Assembly (NCBI GenBank): GCA_024278935.1
Contig: JAJRSF010000026.1
Location: 1 to 35,331, forward strand
Direction: 5' to 3'
From: Candidatus Zixiibacteriota bacterium
GTDB lineage: Bacteria; Zixibacteria; MSB-5A5; GN15; FEB-12
Length of the DNA: 35,331 bases
In this document: piece after piece, positions 18,778 through 30,117 of the stretch
How positions within the stretch are numbered: position 1 is the stretch's first letter
Layout of the letters: the number at the start of each line of letters is the position of its first letter
Position numbers and translations under genes: made by a program
The notes under the pieces: model-generated
Told to the model about the DNA's origin: nothing
Seen by the model: the letters and a program-made list of their open reading frames with translations, nothing else
The model's database searches: none

Positions 18778-19037
18778 GATTTAATAGTAATAATTTAGAA
18801 GATAAGCAAATGCCTCGTCGCAATTTATACGCTTTCGTGAAATCGTTTGACTTGGTAACGCAGAAACTGTATTTTATCATTGTACATGAGAATGTGATGG
18901 GATCTAATTGGCTCAAATTTATCTGGGAGCAAAAAAAGCAATCCCGAAATCTTAAAAATTTAATACCGCCTAAAACATATATATCGAATAAAAAACTTAA
19001 CTTTTCATATAAAAAACCTCTAACCAAGGAGTTTCAA

Positions 19038-19391
19038 ATGAAACGAATTTTATTCGTGTTAGCCCTTATGCTGGCACTCACTGTATGCTTTGTCGGACAG
19101 GCATTTGCATTAAATTATCCATATGGCGATATTCGCAATAACGACCCGGATGGTGGCGACGATCACCCATGGGGTGGCGATGAAATCGGCACAGTTCCTC
19201 CCGGAGTATCAAAATACAGCGGTACAACATTTTCAACAGGTATCATTGTAGTTGATCTATTCTTCAAATATATCATAATCGAAAAAATTGAATATATTAA
19301 CGATCGTATTGAAGTAAAAGATAGCCGTACGACCGGTAATATCGAATTCCGTAAATATTCATCTTTAGAAGATGAGGGACTTCGTAAATGA
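19038..19391 (+). CDS. small exported protein upstream of the sigma-54 activator, unknown
   Basis: The product is 117 residues. ATG at 19038 has a clear AAGGAG seven bases upstream; the open frame extends further 5' but without protein-like features. Residues 1-25 are a signal peptide (ILFVLALMLALTVCFVGQAF, cleavage after AFA). The mature part has an Asp/Gly-rich start (NNDPDGGDDHPWGGDE) and a moderately hydrophobic segment IIVVDLFFKYIIIEKIEYI. No family is recognised. Its stop overlaps the next start (ATGA), so it is translated with the sigma-54 activator; it might deliver or sense the signal for it, which is a guess from linkage. Confidence 0.7.
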   Translation: MKRILFVLALMLALTVCFVGQAFALNYPYGDIRNNDPDGGDDHPWGGDEIGTVPPGVSKYSGTTFSTGIIVVDLFFKYIIIEKIEYINDRIEVKDSRTTGNIEFRKYSSLEDEGLRK

Positions 19392-21643
19392 AGATTGAGA
19401 ACCAAAACCGCGAAGATTTCTTAGGCTCGATGCATCATTTTCTTGACGCATTGATGGGCAAAAGAGATTTTATCGGTGCTGTGAAGTATTACGAGTCACA
19501 TCGTAGTGAACTTCAACAGTCCGGTGTCGCGGCAGGAGCGATTCATCACACAGCAAGCAAAGCATACGCTTCTCTCACTCAACTTCAGCAAGCACTTAAA
19601 ACTGCTCGTATAGCTCAAAATTCCGCCACAATAGAAGGTAATAATAATCTTCTAGCTGATATCTTTTTAACCATTGGATCAATTTTGAGAGACCTGAGTG
19701 AATTCAAAGAAGCGGAGAAAGCATACCGTGATGCTGAATCGATTTTCCGCCGCAATGATTCATTAGAAGGACAAAGTCGTGCTTTAAATATTCTAGCAGG
19801 ACTGTTCTTTAAACAAACTGACTACAACAATGCACTCTCTATATTAATCGACGCTCTAGAGATTGCGAAAAAACTTGATGATAAGAAAAAATTGGCATTC
19901 ATGATGGGAAATATCGGTCGTATTTATACATTCACCGGTAATTTTTCAGAAGCAAAAAAACATCTTCTTACTTCCATAGAACTTTCCGAAAGTTTAGGCA
20001 ACTGCCTTGAAACTGCTCGGGGGCTTTTATCGGTCGGATATATTTATATGCAAGAAGCTGATTATAAAAATGCTGAACAATCGTTTGAAAAAGCGTACCC
20101 TCTTATTATCAGCACACAAAGTAAACGTGACGAAGTATATTACCTTACCTATGTCGGTGAGTTAAAATACAAAATGATGCAGTTTGAACAATCAAGAGAG
20201 AACCTTGCAAAAGCGTTAGTTCTTGCCGAATCAATCGCACCAAACTCCACTTTGTGTGGACATCCACTTCGCCATCTCGCCGAACTGGCTCTGCTTGAAT
20301 CAAACGCAAATATGTCCAGACGTTTTGCTTCACGTGCCTGGGTCATTTTTGAAAAAACATCTGACAAAGTTGAACTTGGTGCATTGTTACGTATCAAAGC
20401 GCAGATTGCTCAACTCAAAGATGAAAAAGCAGAGAGTAAAGTTCTGTTTGTACAATCAATTGAAATGTTGTCGGAGTCTGGGGTACGTTTTGAAAAAGCC
20501 GAAGCACTCAGAGCTGCCGGTAAATCAAAACTGTTTACTTCAAGACAACGATTGACATATTTATTCCGTGCTGAAGAGCTTTATTCTTCTTCACATTTAA
20601 CCGAACGACTGAACCAAGTTGAAAAACTTATTGGTTCGGTTGAGCAAACAACAAAACTAAACAAAGAACCAATCCCTACTCAGGCAGGAATCTGTCCTGA
20701 ACATTTGGAATATCTGACTGCTGATAAAGGAATCAATCAATTCAAATGTCAGTTACCTCTGCTTGGACATACCAACCTACCGGTATTGCTCTCCGGGGAA
20801 ACAGGTGTTGGGAAAGATCATCTGGCTCGCTATTTCCACAACGCTGTCAGACCAACAGGTCCCTACGTTGCGATCAACTGTGCCTCTTTACCGGAGACGC
20901 TTCTTGAGTCAGAACTGTTTGGATTTGTCAAAGGAGCTTTCACCGGTGCCGACAGAAACAAGGAAGGTCTTTTTGTTACTGCCAATACCGGGGTGCTTTT
21001 CCTAGATGAAATCGGCGATATGCCAATTAGCTTGCAGACAAAACTTTTATCGGTTTTAGAAAACAGAAAAGTCGTACCGCTTGGTTCGACAAAAACTGTT
21101 GAGCTTGATTTTAAACTAATCGCTGCGACCAATAAAAACTTAGAGGAAATGGTAGAGCAAGGAACTTTCAGGCGTGATCTCTACTATCGTTTGAGTGGTA
21201 TCAATTTCACCATTCCACCTCTGAGAAATCGGAAAGCGGACATACCAATTCTGCTTGAAAAATTCATGATACAGTCGGGGCTTTTGAAAAAAGGTGACAA
21301 GCTGGAAGTTGAGTTTATCCGTCAGTTTATTGCCTACGATTGGCCGGGTAACACCAGAGAGTTGTATAACAAAGTCAAGCGACTTGAAGTTATGACTATG
21401 ATGGTGACCGAAGGCGACTTGGTTGAACTTTCTCGTACAATGTTTAAAAGCGAAAATGTTTCTGAAGAGAAATCGCTTTTTGATAAAGTTGAAGAGTTCG
21501 AACGGAAAATTATTGTCGAGGCGTTACTTGCTGCCAATGGGAATAAATCCGAAGTTGCCCGAATGCTTGGTATTCATGAAGCAACGGTACGCACCAAACT
21601 CAAACTGTATCAGATTTCTTTAGACTCTTACCAAATGAACTAA
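19388..21643 (+). CDS. TPR-containing sigma-54-dependent transcriptional activator (bEBP)
   Basis: The product is 751 residues. Residues about 15-430 are a run of TPR-like helical pairs (LADIFLTIGSILRDLSEFKE, GNIGRIYTFTGNFSEAKKHL, GLLSVGYIYMQEADYKNAEQ). Residues about 440-680 are the AAA+ sigma-54 interaction domain: Walker A GETGVGKDHLA near 470, ELFGFVKGAFTGAD near 510 with an intact GAFTGA loop, Walker B VLFLDEIGD, and FRRDLYYRLSGI with the arginine finger. A Fis-type helix-turn-helix ends the protein (NKSEVARMLGIHEATVRTKL). It lacks receiver, GAF or PAS domains; the TPR array presumably senses a protein or ligand. It is followed by a control region with paired palindromes and a -24/-12 promoter before the BMC operon, its probable target. 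Confidence 0.92.
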   Translation: MKIENQNREDFLGSMHHFLDALMGKRDFIGAVKYYESHRSELQQSGVAAGAIHHTASKAYASLTQLQQALKTARIAQNSATIEGNNNLLADIFLTIGSILRDLSEFKEAEKAYRDAESIFRRNDSLEGQSRALNILAGLFFKQTDYNNALSILIDALEIAKKLDDKKKLAFMMGNIGRIYTFTGNFSEAKKHLLTSIELSESLGNCLETARGLLSVGYIYMQEADYKNAEQSFEKAYPLIISTQSKRDEVYYLTYVGELKYKMMQFEQSRENLAKALVLAESIAPNSTLCGHPLRHLAELALLESNANMSRRFASRAWVIFEKTSDKVELGALLRIKAQIAQLKDEKAESKVLFVQSIEMLSESGVRFEKAEALRAAGKSKLFTSRQRLTYLFRAEELYSSSHLTERLNQVEKLIGSVEQTTKLNKEPIPTQAGICPEHLEYLTADKGINQFKCQLPLLGHTNLPVLLSGETGVGKDHLARYFHNAVRPTGPYVAINCASLPETLLESELFGFVKGAFTGADRNKEGLFVTANTGVLFLDEIGDMPISLQTKLLSVLENRKVVPLGSTKTVELDFKLIAATNKNLEEMVEQGTFRRDLYYRLSGINFTIPPLRNRKADIPILLEKFMIQSGLLKKGDKLEVEFIRQFIAYDWPGNTRELYNKVKRLEVMTMMVTEGDLVELSRTMFKSENVSEEKSLFDKVEEFERKIIVEALLAANGNKSEVARMLGIHEATVRTKLKLYQISLDSYQMN

Positions 21644-21752
21644 TCGGTAAGTAAGAAAATTATAATCGTTTGCAGAATTTTTGATTTTTTAAATCAGTGT
21701 GAGAGTTATGTCACACACTGGTTGTATTAAAATATTTTTTCACTCCTTGGTT

Positions 21753-21790
21753 AACGGTAAGTCTGTTTTACACAGGCTTACCGTTTTTTT
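21753..21790 (+). terminator. terminator of the sigma-54 activator gene
   Basis: AACGGTAAG (21753-21761) pairs with CTTACCGTT (21777-21785), with an inner CTGT/ACAG stem and eight T residues. A weaker inverted repeat (CAGTGTG with CACACTG) lies at 21693-21719 between the stop and this terminator. Confidence 0.88.
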
Positions 21791-21808
21791 TCGTTTGAAT
21801 ATACGAAA
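21789..21808. promoter_or_regulatory. putative activator site 1 (palindromic UAS)
   Basis: TTTCGTTTGAATATACGAAA is an imperfect palindrome matching the perfect one at 21881-21900 at 17 of 20 positions. It lies about 190 bases before the sigma-54 promoter, a normal enhancer distance. Confidence 0.55.
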
Positions 21809-21880
21809 ACTGCACAATATTCTCACCCTTCCCTATCTCGTTGTCTTTCAGTAACTTTCAATTAATTCTCAAACCATGCC

Positions 21881-21900
21881 TTTCGTACAAATATACGAAA
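21881..21900. promoter_or_regulatory. putative activator site 2 (palindromic UAS)
   Basis: TTTCGTACAAATATACGAAA has perfect 7-base arms (TTTCGTA/TACGAAA). It is 92 bases from site 1 and about 95 bases before the -24 element. Paired, similarly spaced dyads upstream of a -24/-12 promoter are typical of enhancer-binding-protein targets. Confidence 0.65.
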
Positions 21901-21961
21901 AATTTCGCATTCCAATTATTCGAATCCAGTCATCAATTCTATATCGCATTGAACAACAACA

Positions 21962-21978
21962 CGATACCTTCCGTATCG
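21962..21978. promoter_or_regulatory. additional inverted repeat near the BMC promoter
   Basis: CGATAC and GTATCG flank five bases. The word TATCGCATTG also occurs twice nearby (21942-21951 and 21975-21984). This may be a site for a bending protein or a second regulator. Confidence 0.35.
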
Positions 21979-21994
21979 CATTGTCAGGACCCCT

Positions 21995-22012
21995 TTGGCA
22001 TAGAGCTTGCTT
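21995..22012 (+). promoter_or_regulatory. sigma-54 (-24/-12) promoter of the BMC operon
   Basis: TTGGCATAGAGCTTGCTT has GG and GC separated by exactly ten bases and the flanking TTGGCA and TTGCTT expected of a -24/-12 element (consensus TTGGCACG-N4-TTGCT). The predicted start is near 22022. A sigma-54 activator gene ends about 350 bases upstream. Confidence 0.8.
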
Positions 22013-22021
22013 AAGATATAA

Positions 22022-22122
22022 GTGTCATTTTTACTCCCAAATTTTAGCTGTAATCTTTGGGTTTTCTTTTCTCTTTGGTAAGACCATCCGCACACTGAGG
22101 GGAGTGCGGGTGGTTCTTTTTT
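22022..22122 (+). ncRNA. putative leader RNA or small RNA from the sigma-54 promoter
   Basis: Transcription from the -24/-12 element would begin near 22022 and meet a strong hairpin ending in TTTTTT at 22122, giving an RNA of about 100 bases. The shell gene starts about 90 bases later. The RNA is either a free small RNA with partial readthrough, or an attenuated leader. No known riboswitch class was recognised. It has no clear coding capacity. Confidence 0.45.
22083..22122 (+). terminator. terminator-like hairpin inside the BMC leader
   Basis: ACCATCCGCAC (22083-22093) pairs with GTGCGGGTGGT (22104-22114), with one T-G pair, then TCTTTTTT. An outer stem TTTGGTAA (22074-22081) with TTACCAAA (22121-22128) can extend the structure and would bury the T run, a possible switch between two states. 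Confidence 0.75.
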
Positions 22123-22213
22123 ACCAAAAATTTCAAATTTCATTCAGATAAATCAGATAATAAAATCAGAATCTAATTTACAATTTGTCAATAATCATTT
22201 ATGTTCTAATGTG

Positions 22214-22777
22214 ATGTCTGATAAAGCACTAGGATTGATTGAAACCAAGGGATTGATAGGTGCAATCGAAGCAGTCGATGCTGCCGCAAAAGCTGCCGCT
22301 GTTGTTGTATCATCTGTCGAGCTGACTGAAGCTGCCTTTATGACTATAAAAATCGAAGGCGACTTAGGAGCAGTGCAGGCGGCTGTGGAAGCAGGTGCGG
22401 CTGCCGCTGAAAAAATCGGCGAGCTGGTTGCGGTACATGTTATCCCGAACCCATCAGGTGAGATGGCTGCCATCCTGCCCCAAAGAAGATATATCTCAAA
22501 GTACCACCCAAATGACAAACGTCCGGCTCTCACTGATGACAACGCCGAAAACGGATTTCCTGTTGTTAAGAAAAAAAATAAAGTTTCAAAATCGCAAAAC
22601 GTATCAGCGGTTAAAAATAAAATTATAAAAACTCAGCTTGATAAAATGACCGTCGGAGATCTTCGTCAGATAGCAAGGAAACTTGTTGACTTAACTCTCA
22701 AAGGTCGCGAAATTTCAATGGCAAATAAACAACAACTTATAGATGCGATTCGTCGCACTGAAGATAACGGAAACTAA
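22214..22777 (+). CDS. BMC-H shell protein with Rho_N/SAP-like C-terminal extension
   Basis: The product is 187 residues from ATG at 22214; GTG at 22211 is an alternative and neither has a good ribosome site. Residues about 4-90 are one BMC domain (ALGLIETKGLIGAIEAVDAA, IKIEGDLGAVQAAVEAGAAA, HVIPNPSGEM), the hexamer-forming shell fold. Residues about 90-135 are a polar linker rich in Lys and Asn. Residues about 143-183 (LDKMTVGDLRQIARKL, then MANKQQLIDAIRR) match the Rho N-terminal/SAP-like helical pattern, known elsewhere to bind nucleic acid. It is the only BMC-H gene in view. The extension could face the lumen as a scaffold for cargo or bind nucleic acid; both are inference. Confidence 0.9.
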   Translation: MSDKALGLIETKGLIGAIEAVDAAAKAAAVVVSSVELTEAAFMTIKIEGDLGAVQAAVEAGAAAAEKIGELVAVHVIPNPSGEMAAILPQRRYISKYHPNDKRPALTDDNAENGFPVVKKKNKVSKSQNVSAVKNKIIKTQLDKMTVGDLRQIARKLVDLTLKGREISMANKQQLIDAIRRTEDNGN

Positions 22778-22780
22778 ATT

Positions 22781-23098
22781 ATGTTTATAGGAAAAGTTGT
22801 CGGCTCTCTTTGGGCTACCAGAAAAGTAGAAAACACTTCGGGTATAAAATTTCTAATTGTGCAACCGTATAATTTAAACAAAGCACCAAACACTGACACT
22901 GTTGTCGTAGCCGATAACCTTGGTGCCGGCGAAGGTGAACTTGTTATGGTTGCGTACGGACGTGCGGCTCGGATGGCACTCGGCAACGATGACTTATCTA
23001 TCGAGGCTGCTGTGATTGGTATAATTGATGAGTTCACTATTGATGAAAATTCATACCACGGTGAGTTAGACCAAGAGAAATTAAAATTTAAGAAGTAG
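22781..23098 (+). CDS. BMC-P pentameric vertex protein (EutN/CcmL family)
   Basis: The product is 105 residues and begins FIGKVVGSLWATRKVENTSG, the family's opening beta strand, followed by FLIVQPYN, VVVADNLGAGEGELVMVAYG and AVIGIIDEFTID. EutN/CcmL/PduN proteins form pentamers that cap the vertices of the polyhedral shell. It starts four bases after the BMC-H gene. With one BMC-H and one BMC-T gene it completes a minimal shell set. Confidence 0.95.
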   Translation: MFIGKVVGSLWATRKVENTSGIKFLIVQPYNLNKAPNTDTVVVADNLGAGEGELVMVAYGRAARMALGNDDLSIEAAVIGIIDEFTIDENSYHGELDQEKLKFKK

Positions 23099-23359: not shown

Positions 23360-24203
23360 AAATCCGTACATTGCAAATAACGTTCCAAAAGTACAATTCT
23401 CAGTATGTGCTTATTTAGATATTCTTGGATTTAAAGATGAGATTAAAAAATCTCACTTAAATGGAAAATCCAATGAATTGCTTTTGAAATTAAAAAAATC
23501 TTTAGACAAATCATTAAAGTATCTAAAAGATAAAGATTCAAAAGAATTTGGAAAACCTTTTGATGATTGGACAATAAAAACATTTACGGACAATATTGTT
23601 TTAGGTTATCCTATAAAAAATTTTGATAAAACATTTTCAGATGACGCTGAATGGGAGTTAGGTACTATTATTGAATGGTTATCATTTTTCCAACTAGAGA
23701 TGTCACTATCAGGTTTTTTTGTTAGAGGTTGTGTATCTGTTGGGGAATTATACATTGATAAAAACATCGTATTTGGAAACGCCTTGTTAGAAGCTCACTG
23801 CGGAGAATCAACTTTAGCTAATTTCCCAAGAATAGTTTTATCTCCTTCCGCTTCTAAACTCATAGAGAAGCATGTTAAATATTATACTCCAACGAGTGGT
23901 GCTCCACAAAATTATAATATACTTATAGATGAAGATGGTTTAATGTACCTTAGTTACTTAGACTTAGTTAGAGAGATGAATGAATCAGATATGTATAATA
24001 CAATAATCGACAATCATAGGACTGTAATTGAAAGAAAACTTTCAAAGTTCAAATCTGATCAAAAAATTTGGAATAAATATTCTTGGAGTGCTAATTATCA
24101 CAACTATATATGTGATAATTATGAACAATTATCTAAAGAGCAAATAATAAATAGCGATTTTTCACCAAGAGACACATTCCAACTATGCCAAAAAATAAAG
24201 TAA
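23352..24203 (+). CDS. uncharacterised protein with class III nucleotidyl-cyclase-like pattern
   Basis: The product is 283 residues from ATG at 23352. SVCAYLDILGFKDEI (about 18-32) resembles the first metal-binding strand of class III cyclases (x-x-D-I-x-G-F), KTFTDNIVLGYP (about 77-88) could supply the second Asp, and FVRGCVSVGELYIDKNIVFG with NALLEAH recalls the R-x-G-x-x-x-G ... G-x-x-x-N-x-A-x-R part. It belongs to a widespread family usually annotated hypothetical. The gene is clearly richer in A+T than the BMC genes on both sides, overlaps the small membrane-protein gene at its start and the PduS-like frame at its end, and looks inserted. Known Pycsar cyclases are antiphage signals, so a defence role is possible but unproved; the catalytic assignment is from pattern only. 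Confidence 0.6.
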   Translation: MSRNPYIANNVPKVQFSVCAYLDILGFKDEIKKSHLNGKSNELLLKLKKSLDKSLKYLKDKDSKEFGKPFDDWTIKTFTDNIVLGYPIKNFDKTFSDDAEWELGTIIEWLSFFQLEMSLSGFFVRGCVSVGELYIDKNIVFGNALLEAHCGESTLANFPRIVLSPSASKLIEKHVKYYTPTSGAPQNYNILIDEDGLMYLSYLDLVREMNESDMYNTIIDNHRTVIERKLSKFKSDQKIWNKYSWSANYHNYICDNYEQLSKEQIINSDFSPRDTFQLCQKIK

Positions 24204-24208
24204 GTACA

Positions 24209-25531
24209 ATGCATCCAATAGTTGAAAAAATTAAACAAGCAGGAATTGTTGGTGCCGGTGGTGCCGGATTCCCTGCCCATATAAAGTTTGACGCCCAAGC
24301 GGAGATAATGATTGCCAATGGTGCCGAGTGTGAACCGCTTCTGTACAAAGACAAAGAGCTGATGCGTCTTTTTCCGAACGAAGTTAAAAAAGGAATGGAA
24401 CTTGCCGCCGAAGCTATCGGCGCATCGAGAACCATCCTCGGAGTCAAAGCAAAAAACGCCGAAGTAATCGGACAGTTTAGAGGACTCTTTGGCGGAACCT
24501 CACACGAGATTTTTGAGATGGGTGACTACTACCCTGCCGGCGACGAATATGTTTTGGTATACGAAGCAACCGGACGGCTTATCCCCTATGGTGGCTACCC
24601 TGTCAATGTCGGGTGCGTTGTATCAAATGTCGAAACACTTTTAAACATAGCTCTCGCCGATTCAGGCATACCTGTTACCGAAACTTTTGTAACACTTAAC
24701 GGCGTTATCAAAAACCCGATGACTCTCAAAGTTCCGATAGGCACTCCGCTCAACGAACTTATCGAATTCGCAGGCGGGTTCACAATCGACAGCGATGTCG
24801 CCACTCTCGCAGGCGGAGCTATGATGGGCAACCTGCAGACTGATTTTTCTTTACCTCTCACAAAAACTTGTGCGGGGTTTATATTTTTACCGACTGATCA
24901 TAACTTAGTACGTCGTCGTGGTGAATCTCTTTCTGAAATGAAAAAGATCGGACAGTCAGCATGCGACCAATGCACCTACTGCACCGAGTTCTGTCCTCGC
25001 TACTTATTAGGCTATCATATCGAACCACACAAAGTCATGCGTTCGCTTGGCTTCGCTGGGGAACAGGATGATTTCTGGGGTTTACACGCTATAAACTGTT
25101 GCGAATGCAATCTCTGTTCGCTTTATGCATGTCCAGAAGACCTGGATCCAAAACAAGCCTGCGTAAGATCCAAACGAAATATAAAACTCAAAGATATTCC
25201 GTACACTCCTCCACCGGAAGAACTCAAAGCACATCCAATGCAGGAACATCGCAAAGTTTCTATTCACAAACTGACTCGCAAACTCGGATTGATACCATAT
25301 AAAAACGATGCACTCTTTAACGATGCACCTTTTAAACCATCACAGGTTGTTATCCCTCTTTCGCAACATGTAGGTTCTCCGGCAGTTGCAAAAGTTTCTG
25401 TCGGTGATTCTGTTTCACTTGGTGACTTGATAGGAACAATCCCCGATGGTTCCATGGGTGCCAACATACACGCATCGATAAACGGAACGGTCTCCCACGT
25501 AGATGAAAATATCACAATAAAGGCAAGATAG
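24209..25531 (+). CDS. pduS: PduS-like (RnfC-type) Fe-S flavoprotein of the microcompartment
   Basis: From ATG at 24209 the product is 440 residues; ATG at 24185 would add eight residues and overlap the cyclase-like gene further. GIVGAGGAGFPAHIKF and MIANGAECEPLLYKDKELM form the NADH/FMN-binding Complex I 51-kDa-like part, an SLBB domain follows (FVTLNGVIKNPMTLKVPIG), then two [4Fe-4S] motifs, CDQCTYCTEFCP near residue 253 and CCECNLCSLYACP near 297, and a C-terminal lipoyl-like region (VGSPAVAKVSVGDSVSLGD). PduS in propanediol compartments moves electrons from NADH, serving cobalamin reduction. The BMC-T gene starts at the next base. Its electron acceptor here is unknown. Confidence 0.92.
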   Translation: MHPIVEKIKQAGIVGAGGAGFPAHIKFDAQAEIMIANGAECEPLLYKDKELMRLFPNEVKKGMELAAEAIGASRTILGVKAKNAEVIGQFRGLFGGTSHEIFEMGDYYPAGDEYVLVYEATGRLIPYGGYPVNVGCVVSNVETLLNIALADSGIPVTETFVTLNGVIKNPMTLKVPIGTPLNELIEFAGGFTIDSDVATLAGGAMMGNLQTDFSLPLTKTCAGFIFLPTDHNLVRRRGESLSEMKKIGQSACDQCTYCTEFCPRYLLGYHIEPHKVMRSLGFAGEQDDFWGLHAINCCECNLCSLYACPEDLDPKQACVRSKRNIKLKDIPYTPPPEELKAHPMQEHRKVSIHKLTRKLGLIPYKNDALFNDAPFKPSQVVIPLSQHVGSPAVAKVSVGDSVSLGDLIGTIPDGSMGANIHASINGTVSHVDENITIKAR

Positions 25532-26083
25532 ATGGAATATACCGCAATAGGATTAATAGAATATAGCTCGATTGCCAAAGGTATCGGATCCGCAGACGAG
25601 ATGCTCAAAGCGGCATCGGTCGAGATGGTTATCAGCCGTACAATTTGCTCGGGCAAATATATGAACATGGTCGCAGGCGATGTCGAAGCGGTCAAGCAAG
25701 CAGTCGATGCGGGCGAAGCGTATGGTGCCGAGTCGGTCATTGACAATTTTATCATTCCGAATGTACATCCCGATGTTATGCCTGCCATGTCAGGTTCAAC
25801 CCAACTGGTCAAACTTGATGCTCTCGGAATTATCGAATCGTTCTCGGTTGCATCGCTTGTCGAAGCTGCCGATGCTTGTGCTAAAGCTGCCGATGTACGC
25901 CTAATAGAAATTCGTCTTGCCATGGCACTCGGTGGAAAAGCGTTTGTGACGCTTACCGGAAATGTCGGAGCCGTTGAAGCGGCAATTGCTGCCGGTGTCG
26001 AAGTTGTTTCCAAAGCAGGGATGCTTGTTAACCAAGTTGTCATCCCATCCCCAAGCAAAGAACTGATGCGAGATATTTTATAG
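25532..26083 (+). CDS. pduT: BMC-T tandem-domain shell protein, PduT-like
   Basis: The product is 183 residues with two BMC domains in tandem: about 4-88 (AIGLIEYSSIAKGIGSADEM, VAGDVEAVKQAVDAGEAYG, DNFIIPNVHPD) and about 92-180 (ALGIIESFSVASLVEAADAC, LTGNVGAVEAAIAAGVEVVS, QVVIPSPSKEL). A cysteine at about residue 39 (SRTICSGKYMNMVAGD) is placed as in PduT, where three copies hold a [4Fe-4S] cluster in the trimer pore. Direct coupling to the pduS-like gene, with no gap, fits an electron path through the shell. Symbol given by similarity. Confidence 0.9.
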   Translation: MEYTAIGLIEYSSIAKGIGSADEMLKAASVEMVISRTICSGKYMNMVAGDVEAVKQAVDAGEAYGAESVIDNFIIPNVHPDVMPAMSGSTQLVKLDALGIIESFSVASLVEAADACAKAADVRLIEIRLAMALGGKAFVTLTGNVGAVEAAIAAGVEVVSKAGMLVNQVVIPSPSKELMRDIL

Positions 26084-26098
26084 GGCTGTAAAAACTAA

Positions 26099-26530
26099 AT
26101 GATTGAAATTAAAACAAACAAAAGAGATTTGAAAAAAGCAAGAATTCTGTTTCACATTTCTAATAGCTTTTTAATTTCAATTATGGCATCTGGACTTTGG
26201 ATTATGATTAGTACTAATGAATACGAACAATCTATTCGGATGTTAGTTGCTTTGTTAATGTTTTTCCCAATTTGGTTAATTACCCTTTTTGATTATTACT
26301 TTTCATTAGTTATAGTTAATGATAACTTTATTTATAAAAAGTGTCTCTTCATGAAAAGAATAAATATTCAAGATATAAATAAAATAAAAACTGGGAATGG
26401 TTTTATTATTGTGTTTGATAAATTAAAATCAATTAAAGTTGATAAACAATATGGAAAGTTTAATGAAATTTCTGCTTTCATTTTACAACAAGTTTCAAAC
26501 AATAAAAACATCGAAATAATCAACATGTAA
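26099..26530 (+). CDS. small membrane protein with PH-like C-terminal domain
   Basis: The product is 143 residues. Two membrane segments at about 18-40 and 48-72 (ISNSFLISIMASGLWIMIS; VALLMFFPIWLITLFDYYF) are followed by a beta-rich 65-residue stretch (VNDNFIYKKCLFMKRINIQD, IKTGNGFIIVFDKLKSIKV) like bacterial PH (bPH) domains. No partner is known. It is strongly A+T-rich compared with the BMC-T gene before and the helix-linker gene after, so it too appears to be an insertion in the operon. Confidence 0.65.
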   Translation: MIEIKTNKRDLKKARILFHISNSFLISIMASGLWIMISTNEYEQSIRMLVALLMFFPIWLITLFDYYFSLVIVNDNFIYKKCLFMKRINIQDINKIKTGNGFIIVFDKLKSIKVDKQYGKFNEISAFILQQVSNNKNIEIINM

Positions 26531-26565
26531 ATAACTATAGTTGTGAATAAATAGAGAGAAACATT

Positions 26566-26805
26566 ATGGGTTTATCAGAATTTGAAATTAAAAAAATAAC
26601 CGAAATCGTAGCCGGTAAAGTCGGCACTGATCTCGACGCAAAATCTCTTCGCAGAGTTATCGACTCTGTCGTTGACAATCTCCAAGCGAACAACAATCCG
26701 TCAGTCACAGGTGCAACATGTGATGTGTCTTCATCGGATGGAAAAACTAACGCTAAACCAAAAGCGTATGTATCACCAACCGTGCAAAAATATCTTACCG
26801 ATTAA
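26566..26805 (+). CDS. short protein with encapsulation-peptide-like helix; in frame with the ACT gene across a TAA
   Basis: The product is 79 residues. Residues 3-40 form amphipathic helices (LSEFEIKKITEIVAGKVG; DAKSLRRVIDSVVDNLQ) of the kind used as encapsulation peptides or short coiled-coil targeting tags in BMC cargo, then a flexible Ser/Lys/Pro-rich linker to KAYVSPTVQKYLTD. The TAA at 26803-26805 is followed in the same frame by PQEQGAGGLYREIEKS and the ACT domain, with no gap. So the ancestral protein may have been a helix-linker-ACT fusion of 187 residues that recruits the ACT domain into the shell. Either the stop is new, an error, or the two parts are translated separately. Confidence 0.65.
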   Translation: MGLSEFEIKKITEIVAGKVGTDLDAKSLRRVIDSVVDNLQANNNPSVTGATCDVSSSDGKTNAKPKAYVSPTVQKYLTD

Positions 26806-26829
26806 CCCCAAGAACAGGGTGCCGGCGGA

Positions 26830-27129
26830 TTGTACCGTGAGATTGAAAAATCGGATGCATCACGAATCATCGTTGCTGCTTTCGGAAAGAACCGTCCTGG
26901 TGTGGTAGCCGCTATTACAAAAATTCTTGCTGATTTGAATTGTTCTATTGAAGATATTTCGCAGACAATCATGCAGGACTTTTTCTCGATGATTATGGTT
27001 GTTAATATGAAAGACTGCACGATGGATTTTGCGGCGTTGCGTGAAAAGATACAAGCGACCGAATCAACCCTTGGCATGAAAGTATATGTCATGCACGAAG
27101 ACATTTTCAAATACATGCATAGGATTTAA
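26830..27129 (+). CDS. ACT-domain protein, UPF0237 family
   Basis: The product is 99 residues from TTG at 26830; the start is doubtful because GGCGGA abuts the TTG. The sequence RIIVAAFGKNRPGVVAAITKIL, NCSIEDISQTIMQDFFSMIMV and a C-terminal VMHEDIFKYMHRI match UPF0237 proteins (COG3830), single ACT domains that usually sit beside UPF0210 in an operon. ACT domains bind small ligands, mostly amino acids, as dimers. UPF0210 is indeed downstream but is separated by an inverted toxin-antitoxin-chaperone module. The in-frame upstream helix-linker segment suggests this ACT protein is, or was, BMC cargo. Confidence 0.8.
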   Translation: MYREIEKSDASRIIVAAFGKNRPGVVAAITKILADLNCSIEDISQTIMQDFFSMIMVVNMKDCTMDFAALREKIQATESTLGMKVYVMHEDIFKYMHRI

Positions 27130-27159
27130 AAAAAGCCCTCTGATAGAGGGCTTTTTTTT
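27128..27159. terminator. bidirectional terminator between the BMC operon and the TAC module
   Basis: GCCCTC (27135-27140) pairs with GAGGGC (27146-27151), extended by A runs on the left and T runs on the right to an 11-pair stem. It serves the plus-strand ACT gene and the converging SecB-like gene. Confidence 0.92.
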
Positions 27160-27598
27160 AGTTCTTACCAACAAGGTTTTTTCTAAGAGGTAAAATAAGT
27201 TGGGGCAATCCCATTCTAGAAAGAATAGTATTGATATATTCTCTAAAATATGGAAATGTTTGAAGTGGTAAACTATGTTTACTGTAAATCATAAAAAACT
27301 CTTCCGGAACTTCTTTATCTAATTCAAACAATACTGAATATTTTATTAAAATGTCAAAAACTTTCTTTCTACCATTTTTTGCTTTTAATTTATATAGTAC
27401 TTCAATTTCAACTAAATCTTCTCCAAAATCTTTCAAATTTGTACTTTCGTCAAATTGTAATTTTGCACTACCAGGGAAATTACGTTCAAACAATTTGGAA
27501 TTAATTTCAGTTACAAAAATATCACGTAGATTAATGTGTTGCAATAATTCATTATACTTTTTTGGTGGTATTTTCTTTTTAGCGTCTTCAAATAACAT
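27158..27598 (-). CDS. SecB-like chaperone of a toxin-antitoxin-chaperone (TAC) module
   Basis: The product is 146 residues. The C-terminal half, FDILIKYSVLFELDKEVPEEFFMIYSKHSLPLQTFPYFREYINTILSRMGLPQLILPLRK in outline, carries the SecB-superfamily pattern (FPYFREYINTILSRMG and GLPQLILPL). Stand-alone SecB-like proteins coded after a toxin-antitoxin pair are known as TAC chaperones, which protect the antitoxin from degradation and aggregation. It starts five bases after the HicB stop with AGGA upstream, so it is translationally linked. It is probably the third gene of the unit rather than a general export chaperone. Confidence 0.8.
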   Translation of the reverse strand: MLFEDAKKKIPPKKYNELLQHINLRDIFVTEINSKLFERNFPGSAKLQFDESTNLKDFGEDLVEIEVLYKLKAKNGRKKVFDILIKYSVLFELDKEVPEEFFMIYSKHSLPLQTFPYFREYINTILSRMGLPQLILPLRKNLVGKN

Positions 27599-27603
27599 AG
27601 AAT

Positions 27604-28137
27604 TTATCCTGTTTTGCTATATTTTTTTGGTATTACATATGACTCAGATTCATCATTCAAATTCCCAAAACGATAATTAATATTAGTTTCACATTTATTA
27701 ATCATTTTTTCTAACTTTTTCTCTGTAGTTTTAAAGAAATAAGTTGTAAATTCATTTGTTGCACAATAAATATTTAAGATATTATCAATAAATGCATTTA
27801 AACTTTTACTATTTCTCTCTGATAACATTATTAACTTCTTATGTAAGATTGGAGAAATACGAACTATAAACTTACCACTAGGTAAGGAATCATCTACTCT
27901 TGTTGGTTCTTTTATAGAAATTTTGTTCTCAAAATAGTATTCAAAAAGTTCAATCCTAGTTTCTTCAAAACTTTCTACTGCTTCACTTTTGCTAGCACCA
28001 ACACCATAAAAAGCTTTTGAATCTAAATCCTTTGTATAAGCTTTATACATGTAATCATCTTCATCTTCGATCCTATCAACCTTAATATCATAGTCTAGAT
28101 TTAGATAATACTTTAGATCCTTAATTTGTGTTGTCAC
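27604..28137 (-). CDS. HicB-family antitoxin with C-terminal extension
   Basis: The product is 177 residues. Residues about 10-75 have the HicB partial RNase-H-like fold (YYLNLDYDIKVDRIEDEDD, YTKDLDSKAFYGVGASKSEA). Residues about 95-125 are a ribbon-helix-helix DNA-binding part (SGKFIVRISPILHKKLIML, LNAFIDNIL). A further 50 residues (FKTTEKKLEKMINKCETNIN to the end) are not part of normal HicB and may be the chaperone-addiction segment recognised by the SecB-like protein. The start is GTG at 28137 with GGAG seven bases upstream, overlapping the toxin gene by 17 bases. It likely represses its own promoter through the palindrome at 28505-28526. Confidence 0.8.
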   Translation of the reverse strand: MTTQIKDLKYYLNLDYDIKVDRIEDEDDYMYKAYTKDLDSKAFYGVGASKSEAVESFEETRIELFEYYFENKISIKEPTRVDDSLPSGKFIVRISPILHKKLIMLSERNSKSLNAFIDNILNIYCATNEFTTYFFKTTEKKLEKMINKCETNINYRFGNLNDESESYVIPKKYSKTG

Positions 28138-28462
28138 CTTTTGTCTCCTGTTCCATATATTTTATAATATCCATTAAGTTATGGTATAGATATTTCCTAA
28201 AATCAAATCTTGTTATTGTTTCTTTTTTCTTATGACTGACGTGAATAGTAAAATGACCGTCTCCATGATGTTTCTTAAGTAGATAGTGAAAGAAAAACCT
28301 CTTAGATCCTTGACCTCTCTTTCCTGTTGATTTATTAGTTTCTATCTTCTCAACATCCAAATTTTTTTTAATCCATTTCACAATTGGGTAGAAATCAAAC
28401 TCTCTTTTTTTAGAACTATGATACACTTCAAGTTCTTCCCGGAGCTTTTCAAAATCAATCAA
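28121..28462 (-). CDS. HicA-like toxin (provisional)
   Basis: The product is 113 residues from TTG at 28462, supported by AAAGG seven bases upstream. The middle, GSKRFFFHYLLKKHHGDGHF then TIHVSHKKKETITRFDF and YLYHNLMDII, has the order of a HicA fold (loop, two strands, final helix). The catalytic His normally found right after Gly-Ser is Lys here; a later His (FFFH or HHGDGH) might replace it. It is longer than the usual 60-80 residues, with an extra N-terminal helix. The assignment rests mostly on position before a clear HicB gene. Confidence 0.55.
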   Translation of the reverse strand: MIDFEKLREELEVYHSSKKREFDFYPIVKWIKKNLDVEKIETNKSTGKRGQGSKRFFFHYLLKKHHGDGHFTIHVSHKKKETITRFDFRKYLYHNLMDIIKYMEQETKGDNTN

Positions 28463-28504
28463 GATGTTACCTTTATCGACAATTTGAGAATTATATTAAC
28501 TAGT

Positions 28505-28542
28505 ATGATACTATATATAGTATCATTTTATTCTTTTGTCAA
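28505..28542 (-). promoter_or_regulatory. promoter and 22-bp palindromic operator of the TAC module
   Basis: A perfect palindrome spans 28505-28526 (core TGATACTATATATAGTATCA). On the minus strand a consensus TTGACA (28542-28537) is followed after 17 bases by TATATA (28519-28514), so the -10 box lies inside the palindrome. This fits autorepression by the HicB ribbon-helix-helix domain. Confidence 0.8.
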
Positions 28543-28693
28543 CATTATAACTCCTTATACAACAAAAAGTTTCATTATTAACGTCACTTTTGTATCTTTT
28601 TTCGTTCCTTTAAATTGATATATAATTACAATTTAGACATCCATCAATTCATCAACATCAGAAGCTGTTGCCTTTTAATAGCTTATAAATCAC

Positions 28694-28722
28694 TTTTTTT
28701 TGTCCTCTAAATGCTGTATAAT
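28694..28722 (+). promoter_or_regulatory. possible promoter of the UPF0210 gene
   Basis: TATAAT at 28717-28722 has TTTTTT 17 bases upstream, 40 bases before the ATG at 28762. A second TATAAT is at 28621-28626. The rest of the 28463-28761 gap, beyond the TAC operator, is AT-rich with no gene. A separate promoter would be needed because the TAC module and terminator cut the gene off from the BMC operon. Confidence 0.4.
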
Positions 28723-28761
28723 TTACTAATTGTATAAAAAATTTAGAACGGAAATAAGATT

Positions 28762-30117
28762 ATGACATACAAACCAGAAGAAATTATCGAAACTATCCAC
28801 ATGACCGAAGTCGAACATCTCGACATTCGTACCGTCACAATGGGAATCTCACTACGCGACTGCTCCTCCCCCAACCCCGCCCAACTGCTTGACAATATCA
28901 AAAACAAATTGCTCACCACCGCCAAAGACCATGTCAAAACTGTTGAAGCTGTCTCCAACGAATTCGGAATTCCTATTGCCAACAAACGTATTTCGGTCAC
29001 ACCAATCTCTATCGTCGCCGATGGTCACACCCGCGAAACATTTGTCGAAGTCTGCAAAATGCTTGACTACTGTGCCAAAGAAATCGGTATCGACTACCTT
29101 GGTGGTTACACCGCATTGGTACAAAAAGGAATGACAAAAGGTGATAAAAATTTAATAGAATCAATCCCCGAAGCGTTGGCTGTCACCGAACGAGTTTGTT
29201 CATCGGTCAATATCGCATCGACTAAAGCAGGCATCAACATGAACGCCGTCGCCAAGATGGGTCATGTTATCAAAGAACTCGCCCACAATACCGAAGAAGC
29301 TATCGGTTGTTGCAAGTTAGTCGTCTTCGCAAACTGCGTTGAAGACAATCCGTTTATCGCAGGAGCCTTCCACGGTGTCACCGAACCGGAAGTTGTTATC
29401 AATGTTGGAATCTCCGGTCCCGGCGTAGTTCTCGCCGCTGTCAAAAAAGCAGGTGATTGCGACCTCGGTGCATTGGCAGAAGTTATCAAACGGACAGCAT
29501 TCAAAGTTACCCGTATGGGTGAGATGGTCGGGCGTAAAGTTTCCGAACGATTAGGAATTGAATTTGGAATTATAGATATATCGCTCGCTCCAACTCCTGC
29601 CGAGGGAGATTCAGTCGCAGCAATCCTTGAAGAGATTGGTCTCGAACGTTGCGGATGTCACGGAACCACCGCGGCACTTATGATGCTTAACGATGCAGTG
29701 AAAAAAGGCGGCATGATGGCATCGTCGTATGTCGGCGGTATGTCGGGTGCGTTTATCCCGGTATCGGAAGATGCCAATATGATAGCTGCCGTTGAAGCAG
29801 GTGCAATAAGTTTGGACAAACTTGAAGCGATGACTGCCGTTTGTTCAGTCGGGCTTGATATGGTTGCAGTTCCCGGTGACACCTCGCCCGAAACAATTTC
29901 AGCAATCATTGCCGATGAAGCGGCGATAGGTGTCGTCAATAATAAAACAACCGCAGTGCGAATTATTCCTGTTCCCGGTAAAGGTGTTGGAGAATCAGCT
30001 GTGTATGGCGGACTGCTAGGTACCGCTCCTGTGATGGCTGTCTCGAAATTTTCAGCAGCCAAACTTATTAATCGAGGTGGACGAATCCCCGCCCCTGCTA
30101 AGGGGATCAACAACTAG
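28762..30117 (+). CDS. UPF0210 (DUF711) family protein, PFL-like fold
   Basis: The product is 451 residues, full length for the family. Hallmarks are [20 protein letters not shown] with [113 protein letters not shown] and [16 protein letters not shown]. The solved streptococcal member has a pyruvate-formate-lyase-like barrel, but no glycyl-radical motif is visible here and the reaction is unknown. Its usual operon partner, a UPF0237 ACT protein, lies upstream beyond the TAC module. No separate N-terminal targeting peptide is seen, so recruitment to the shell, if any, would be through the ACT protein. Confidence 0.93.

Follow-up and report, generated by a model that had tools for sequence, protein, structure and literature searches.

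A sigma-54 promoter with paired upstream dyads in a Zixibacteria genome most likely serves a small RNA predicted to silence an anti-sigma gene

The window, that is the whole stretch of 35,331 nucleotides that was analysed, contains the gene of a sigma-54 activator and, further downstream, a BMC shell operon. Two dyads and a -24/-12 promoter are situated between them, and the first-pass annotation had proposed that these elements link the activator to the BMC operon. The locus therefore raises the question which transcript this promoter serves. The elements concerned are the following:

19388 to 21643, plus strand: sigma-54 enhancer-binding protein of 751 amino acids with N-terminal TPRs, an AAA+ domain with GAFTGA and a C-terminal Fis-type HTH (Pfam PF00158 and PF02954; GAFTGA present in the translation).
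21789 to 21808, plus strand: distal dyad TTTCGTTTGAATATACGAAA, putative activator-binding site; position kept in 51 of 55 homologous promoters.
21881 to 21900, plus strand: proximal dyad TTTCGTACAAATATACGAAA, putative activator-binding site; position kept in 53 of 55 homologous promoters.
21995 to 22011, plus strand: -24/-12 sigma-54 promoter TTGGCATAGAGCTTGCT, kept in homologous loci.

Taken individually, the elements were described correctly. The gene upstream, said to encode a GAFTGA activator with a Fis-type domain, indeed codes for TPRs, a sigma-54 activation domain and a Fis-type HTH, and its orthologues occur throughout the order at about 40-81% identity. The genome also possesses rpoN (PF00309 match, E 1.4e-14), the presence of which had been suggested as a check. 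Both dyads are found, at 21789 and 21881, with their starts 92 bases apart as reported, and they have the form TTTCGT-N8-ACGAAA. The pattern TTTCGT-N6-TACGAAA was rejected, since its spacing is wrong and it does not match at the dyads. A whole-genome search, likewise suggested before, yielded three exact dyad copies in 3.4 Mb, two of them at this locus; the third, on contig C33, has no -24/-12 site in the 320 bases flanking it on each side. The sigma-54 element with GG and GC ten bases apart is a good -24/-12 site (GG at 21997-98, GC at 22009-10) and predicts a transcript start near 22021-22022. Since the window contains two one-mismatch matches to TGGCAC-N5-TTGCW, of which TTGGCATAGAGCTTGCT is one, the -24/-12 motif alone is within chance, but dyads and promoter combined are beyond it.

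Conservation of the dyads in relatives, a further point raised by the first-pass annotation, is pronounced. We scanned the homologous promoters of 55 loci for dyads that agree with at least 9 of the 12 consensus positions of TTCGTA-N6-TACGAA and found one about 203 bases upstream in 51/55 (control windows: 2/55) and another about 114 bases upstream in 53/55 (control windows: 0/55). Activator, dyads and -24/-12 site thus belong together at fixed spacing, and this part of the earlier reading stands. That it is this activator which binds the dyads is inferred from adjacency and conservation.

Past the promoter and ahead of the BMC gene, a structured RNA and an intrinsic terminator are present that the first-pass annotation does not mention:

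22022 to 22122, plus strand: small RNA gene of about 100 nt with a 5' single-stranded seed, stem-loop 1, a pyrimidine linker and a terminator stem-loop with GAGGGG loop (covariance models R1 and R2; fold z-score; terminator-stem covariation).
22023 to 22037, plus strand: seed TGTCATTTTTACTCC, antisense to SD and AUG of an anti-sigma gene and of an M3 peptidase gene (sequence match).
22062 to 22079, plus strand: conserved pyrimidine-rich linker TTTTCTTTTCTCTTTGGT (alignment).
22083 to 22122, plus strand: intrinsic terminator hairpin with stem ACCATCCGCAC/GTGCGGGTGGT, GAGGGG loop at 22097-22102 and T-run (fold, stem covariation).

When the loci behind activator orthologues are aligned, the roughly 100 nt past the -24/-12 site are the best-conserved feature and exceed the promoter itself. 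The promoter is followed, in conserved order, by UGUCAUUUUUACUCC as the 5' end of the RNA, a variable stem-loop, the pyrimidine linker and the GAGGGG-loop hairpin, usually with a T-run. These RNAs fold 4.3-5.3 standard deviations better than shuffled sequences (z -4.3 to -5.3, with -4.3 for the RNA in the window), and the terminator stem exhibits double changes at 10 of its 13 pairs, with 96.6% of the cells paired. By covariance model, no family genome has more than one copy of the RNA, and 44 of 54 have one. Within the order, it was detected as a single copy in 55 of 80 genomes with model R1 and in 63 of 80 with model R2, and model R2 found it in none of the remaining 52 genomes of the phylum; the E-values behind these counts are rough and the comparison genomes are incomplete MAGs. 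Rfam gave no match to the RNA at gathering thresholds. It is probably a short transcript with its own promoter and intrinsic terminator, and most likely it is this RNA of about 100 bases, and not the shell-protein genes, that the sigma-54 promoter and its dyads switch on. The GAGGGG loop (22097-22102) and the linker CUUUUCUC (22062-22079) are near-invariant even in family f4, where the seed differs; protein binding or a second target is a possible role of these parts. Kissing of the GAGGGG loop with an ACUCC seed was also considered, but inspection gave no covariation support.

The shell genes behind the RNA are organized as follows:

22177 to 22205, plus strand: sigma-70-like promoter TTTACA-17-TATGTT of the BMC gene, which is apparently leaderless (sequence, conserved).
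22214 to 22777, plus strand: BMC-H shell protein gene with C-terminal extension (Pfam; a neighbour, not an inferred target).
22781 to 23098, plus strand: EutN/CcmL gene, next after BMC-H.

The idea that the sigma-54 promoter drives this operon under the TPR activator, with the hairpins as a leader, can appeal to the 13 homologous family loci in which BMC-H follows the RNA and to a weak T-run after the hairpin in a few of the BMC-H loci (G031, G022). Nevertheless, we regard it as very improbable. A terminator lies directly past the start, about 100 nt downstream of the promoter (22083-22122), and the BMC gene has a conserved, apparently leaderless promoter of its own, TTTACW-N17-TATNNT, that ends about 8 bases before the ATG, is kept in at least eight loci and is present in most of the 13. 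Moreover, eight homologous loci keep the RNA without a BMC gene behind it (for instance in G032, G007, G009, G036, G014 and G008), and, as described below, the gene with which the seed has co-evolved is not linked to this locus. In family f4, the RNA locus is even found elsewhere in the genome, unlinked from the activator gene, and still has its promoter and dyads: a -24/-12 site is present, every locus read has the proximal dyad, at -112 to -115, and those in which the strict pattern matched have the distal one near -201. The terminator, the own promoter of the BMC gene and the phylogenetic distribution therefore indicate that the BMC operon is probably not the main target of the promoter, so that the proposed control of the shell genes is unsupported. 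A cis-acting leader or attenuator of the BMC gene was rejected as well, since loci that lack BMC keep the RNA and f4 carries it unlinked from the activator gene.

It is also conceivable that the promoter does both, i.e. that it makes the small RNA and that regulated read-through of the terminator adds BMC expression in response to the same signal. The adjacency of RNA and BMC-H, kept in about half of the family loci, and the imperfect T-runs in some loci fit this idea. Yet poor T-runs seem, as judged by eye (G022, G031), to be followed by more terminator-like hairpins, and the BMC gene has its own promoter, so we consider a dual role unlikely. The promoter architecture of dyads and -24/-12 site is best read as belonging to the small RNA, and the role that best explains the dyads is that of upstream activation sites, with the sigma-54 promoter serving a trans-acting RNA, as far as can be judged from sequence comparison. 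Further genes of the window, in the BMC region 24185-30117, are a PduS-like, a BMC-T, an ACT-domain protein and a DUF711 protein gene. A second BMC locus of the genome (L064:5725-8508, on G000:C34) comprises a WYL/HTH-type regulator, BMC-H and a PduP-like acylating aldehyde dehydrogenase, all named by eye except BMC-H; no sigma-54 activator gene is among the reading frames listed there.

What, then, does the RNA act upon? The reverse complement of the seed, GGAGTAAAAATGACA, consists of an SD, a spacer, AUG and ACA. In a genome-wide target scan, carried out as a pattern search, it occurred exactly twice in the genome of the window (G000) besides the RNA locus itself, both times at a start codon:

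G000:C54:81857-81871, minus strand: SD and AUG site of a zf-HC2 anti-sigma gene, matching the seed as an exact 15-mer.
G000:C18:54875-54889 (L219): start of a secreted M3 oligoendopeptidase gene, matching the seed as an exact 15-mer.

The M3 oligoendopeptidase does not qualify as a conserved second target. Its site is exact in G000 and G003, has one mismatch in G002, is partial in G071 and was found nowhere else, so that it is at most a lineage-specific second target of the own genus. The anti-sigma gene belongs to an operon in which an ECF sigma gene (sigma70 r2/r4) is followed by the zf-HC2 anti-sigma gene, both identified by domain match, and by a lipoprotein gene; a phosphopentomutase-like gene, named by eye, also follows in several genomes. 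An orthologue of the sigma gene exists in 67 of the 80 order genomes, as a single copy in nearly every genome that has it. Since this orthologue can be located independently, the ribosome binding sites (RBS) behind it can be compared without reference to the seed.

In the 40 genomes that possess both RNA and target, pairing amounts to at least 12 of 15 positions in 35 and to at least 14 of 15 in 25, and double-changed but still paired cells were found at 11 of the 15 seed positions, the target sequence being partly constrained as an RBS and, in some genomes, by the sigma stop codon. Examples of covariation are the pair GGUCAUUGUUACUCC/GGAGTAACAATGACC in G015, single covarying pairs in G018 and G070, and G061, where the SD has changed to GAAAG and the seed has changed to match; in G053, the perfect pairing extends over 22 bp. 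Pairing is poor in G004, G043, G037 and G040, and G019, G028 and G031 pair only with an indel. In family f4, pairing with the anti-sigma start is weaker, and it is absent in some genomes. Among the f4 loci (L361-L368, L326), UUGACGG and UCAU in G042/G050 match CCGUCA and AUGA around the start codon, which suggests a shifted pairing site.

Cognate duplexes have a mean energy of -21.6 kcal/mol compared to -18.1 for swapped ones (sd 0.37), as calculated by RNAduplex, which ignores target accessibility, and none of 20,000 permutations was as good. With one genome per genus the values are -21.4 and -17.6, again with 0 of 20,000 permutations as good, although related genomes are non-independent and such permutations leave deep phylogenetic dependence in place. 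A conserved seed is thus complementary to a conserved mRNA target, and the two covary. One might object that the complementarity merely mirrors a generic RBS consensus of the lineage, since the target is an RBS and many genes share GGAG and ATG. This objection has hardly any probability left in our view. Other starts in the same genome score far worse: the two targets reach -23.5 and -23.1 and the best non-target -17.5, and 108 sampled starts, targets included, average -7.5 (sd 4.0). Orthologues of the M3 peptidase outside the genus mostly lack the match, and cognate pairs outdo swapped ones. Moreover, family genomes without the RNA have drifted sites, for example GGAGTAGCAATGCTT: the anti-sigma RBSs are partly drifted in G010 and G029, in which searches for the RNA and for a close activator orthologue both came back empty, as well as in G069, where a search for the RNA only did not find it.

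We therefore favor a circuit, with a probability of roughly 0.83, in which the TPR activator and sigma-54 drive a small RNA that blocks anti-sigma translation and frees an ECF sigma factor. Its sites, its RNA, its target and their co-evolution were established computationally, and from these we infer transcription, activator binding, repression and sigma release. The TPR activator would bind the two dyads and turn on sigma-54 RNA polymerase, yielding an RNA of about 100 nt with a seed of 15-19 nt at its extreme 5' end. This seed would pair with the SD, the spacer and the start codon of the zf-HC2 membrane anti-sigma gene behind the ECF sigma gene, so that translation of the anti-sigma factor would be blocked and the upstream sigma reading frame left open. 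Free ECF sigma would increase relative to anti-sigma, and the ECF sigma regulon would be turned on. Alternatively, pairing with the sigma/anti-sigma mRNA could mainly trigger decay of the whole bicistronic message and thereby lower sigma too, and the seed site does overlap the sigma stop codon in many genomes. However, the site is centred on the SD and AUG of the anti-sigma gene and stays there where the sigma stop is located 7-24 bases further upstream (G014, G036, G031), which makes this alternative rather doubtful. No match to Hfq was found in the genome, which is 95% complete. Extended to the whole order, the proposal is a dedicated RNA relay that connects two alternative sigma factors: the RNA made with sigma-54 and the TPR activator would itself serve as an anti-anti-sigma factor, silencing the zf-HC2 anti-sigma gene without detectable Hfq, with seed and target RBS co-evolving; we consider this broader formulation reasonably likely.

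Short sRNAs that combine a seed at the 5' end with a terminator hairpin are well known from the sigmaE-dependent MicA/RybB type. The RNA described here differs from them in promoter type, targets and lineage, and it would act upstream of an ECF sigma factor. Closer in function is CJnc230 (FlmE) of Campylobacter jejuni, an RpoN-dependent sRNA that pairs at the RBS of the anti-sigma gene flgM and de-represses the genes of the sigma factor (PMC11187230); an RpoN-dependent small RNA at the RBS of an anti-sigma gene is also what we predict here. FlmE is set apart by its description, since it is processed from the flgE mRNA and targets FlgM of sigma-28 (PMC11187230), whereas our candidate has its own sigma-54 promoter with enhancer dyads, a 5'-terminal seed and a zf-HC2 anti-ECF-sigma target. 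A 5' seed on an anti-sigma mRNA, with the effect predicted here, is known from OmrA/OmrB of E. coli, which block ribosome loading on the flgM mRNA and free the sigma factor (PMC7549644). They are Hfq-dependent and bind in the early flgM coding sequence (PMC7549644), in contrast to a site that covers SD plus AUG in a genome where Hfq was not found. The gene arrangement predicted here, a sigma-54-dependent sRNA directly downstream of its own activator gene, resembles that of CbrB-CrcZ and NtrC-NrsZ of Pseudomonas (PMC8395346). There, CrcZ is a 407-nt Hfq decoy and CbrB and NtrC are response regulators (PMC8395346); here, the predicted RNA has about 100 nt and an antisense seed, and TPRs take the place of the receiver domain in the activator.

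A dedicated sigma-54 enhancer promoter, a seed at the 5' end and an anti-ECF target of the zf-HC2 type do not occur together in any of FlmE, OmrA/B and CrcZ/NrsZ. No such circuit appeared in the titles and abstracts covered by our literature search, and a full-text search found no small-RNA study for this phylum. The analysis names, for this phylum, a conserved regulatory RNA together with what drives its transcription and what it targets. For a case made by computation alone, the evidence of seed-target co-evolution is unusually strong. The analysis also corrects the assignment of the promoter to the shell operon, which was plausible but lacks support. If true, two alternative sigma factors are wired in series in a conserved circuit: the first turns on the second by way of an RNA that takes away the anti-sigma factor, possibly without Hfq.

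Some further observations concern the activator operon itself:

19022 to 19032, plus strand: RBS AACCAAGGAGT of the secreted-protein gene (sequence).
19038 to 19391, plus strand: first gene of the activator operon, for a small secreted protein of 117 amino acids with signal peptide and DDHPWGG motif (sequence; homologues upstream of activator orthologues).
21742 to 21790, plus strand: 3' UTR of the activator operon, ACTCCTTGGTT followed by an intrinsic terminator (sequence).

The stop codon of the secreted-protein gene (19038-19391) overlaps the start codon of the activator gene (19388 to 21643), and in most orthologous loci the activator gene is directly preceded by a gene for such a protein, with its motif conserved; the protein is perhaps part of sensing. 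ACTCCTTGGTT (21742-21752) is the exact complement of AACCAAGGAGT, the RBS of the operon's first gene, and both are kept in many family members, which suggests autoregulation or 5'-3' pairing. The part CUCUUUGGU of the small-RNA linker could pair with the same RBS AACCAAGGAGT, with one G-U.
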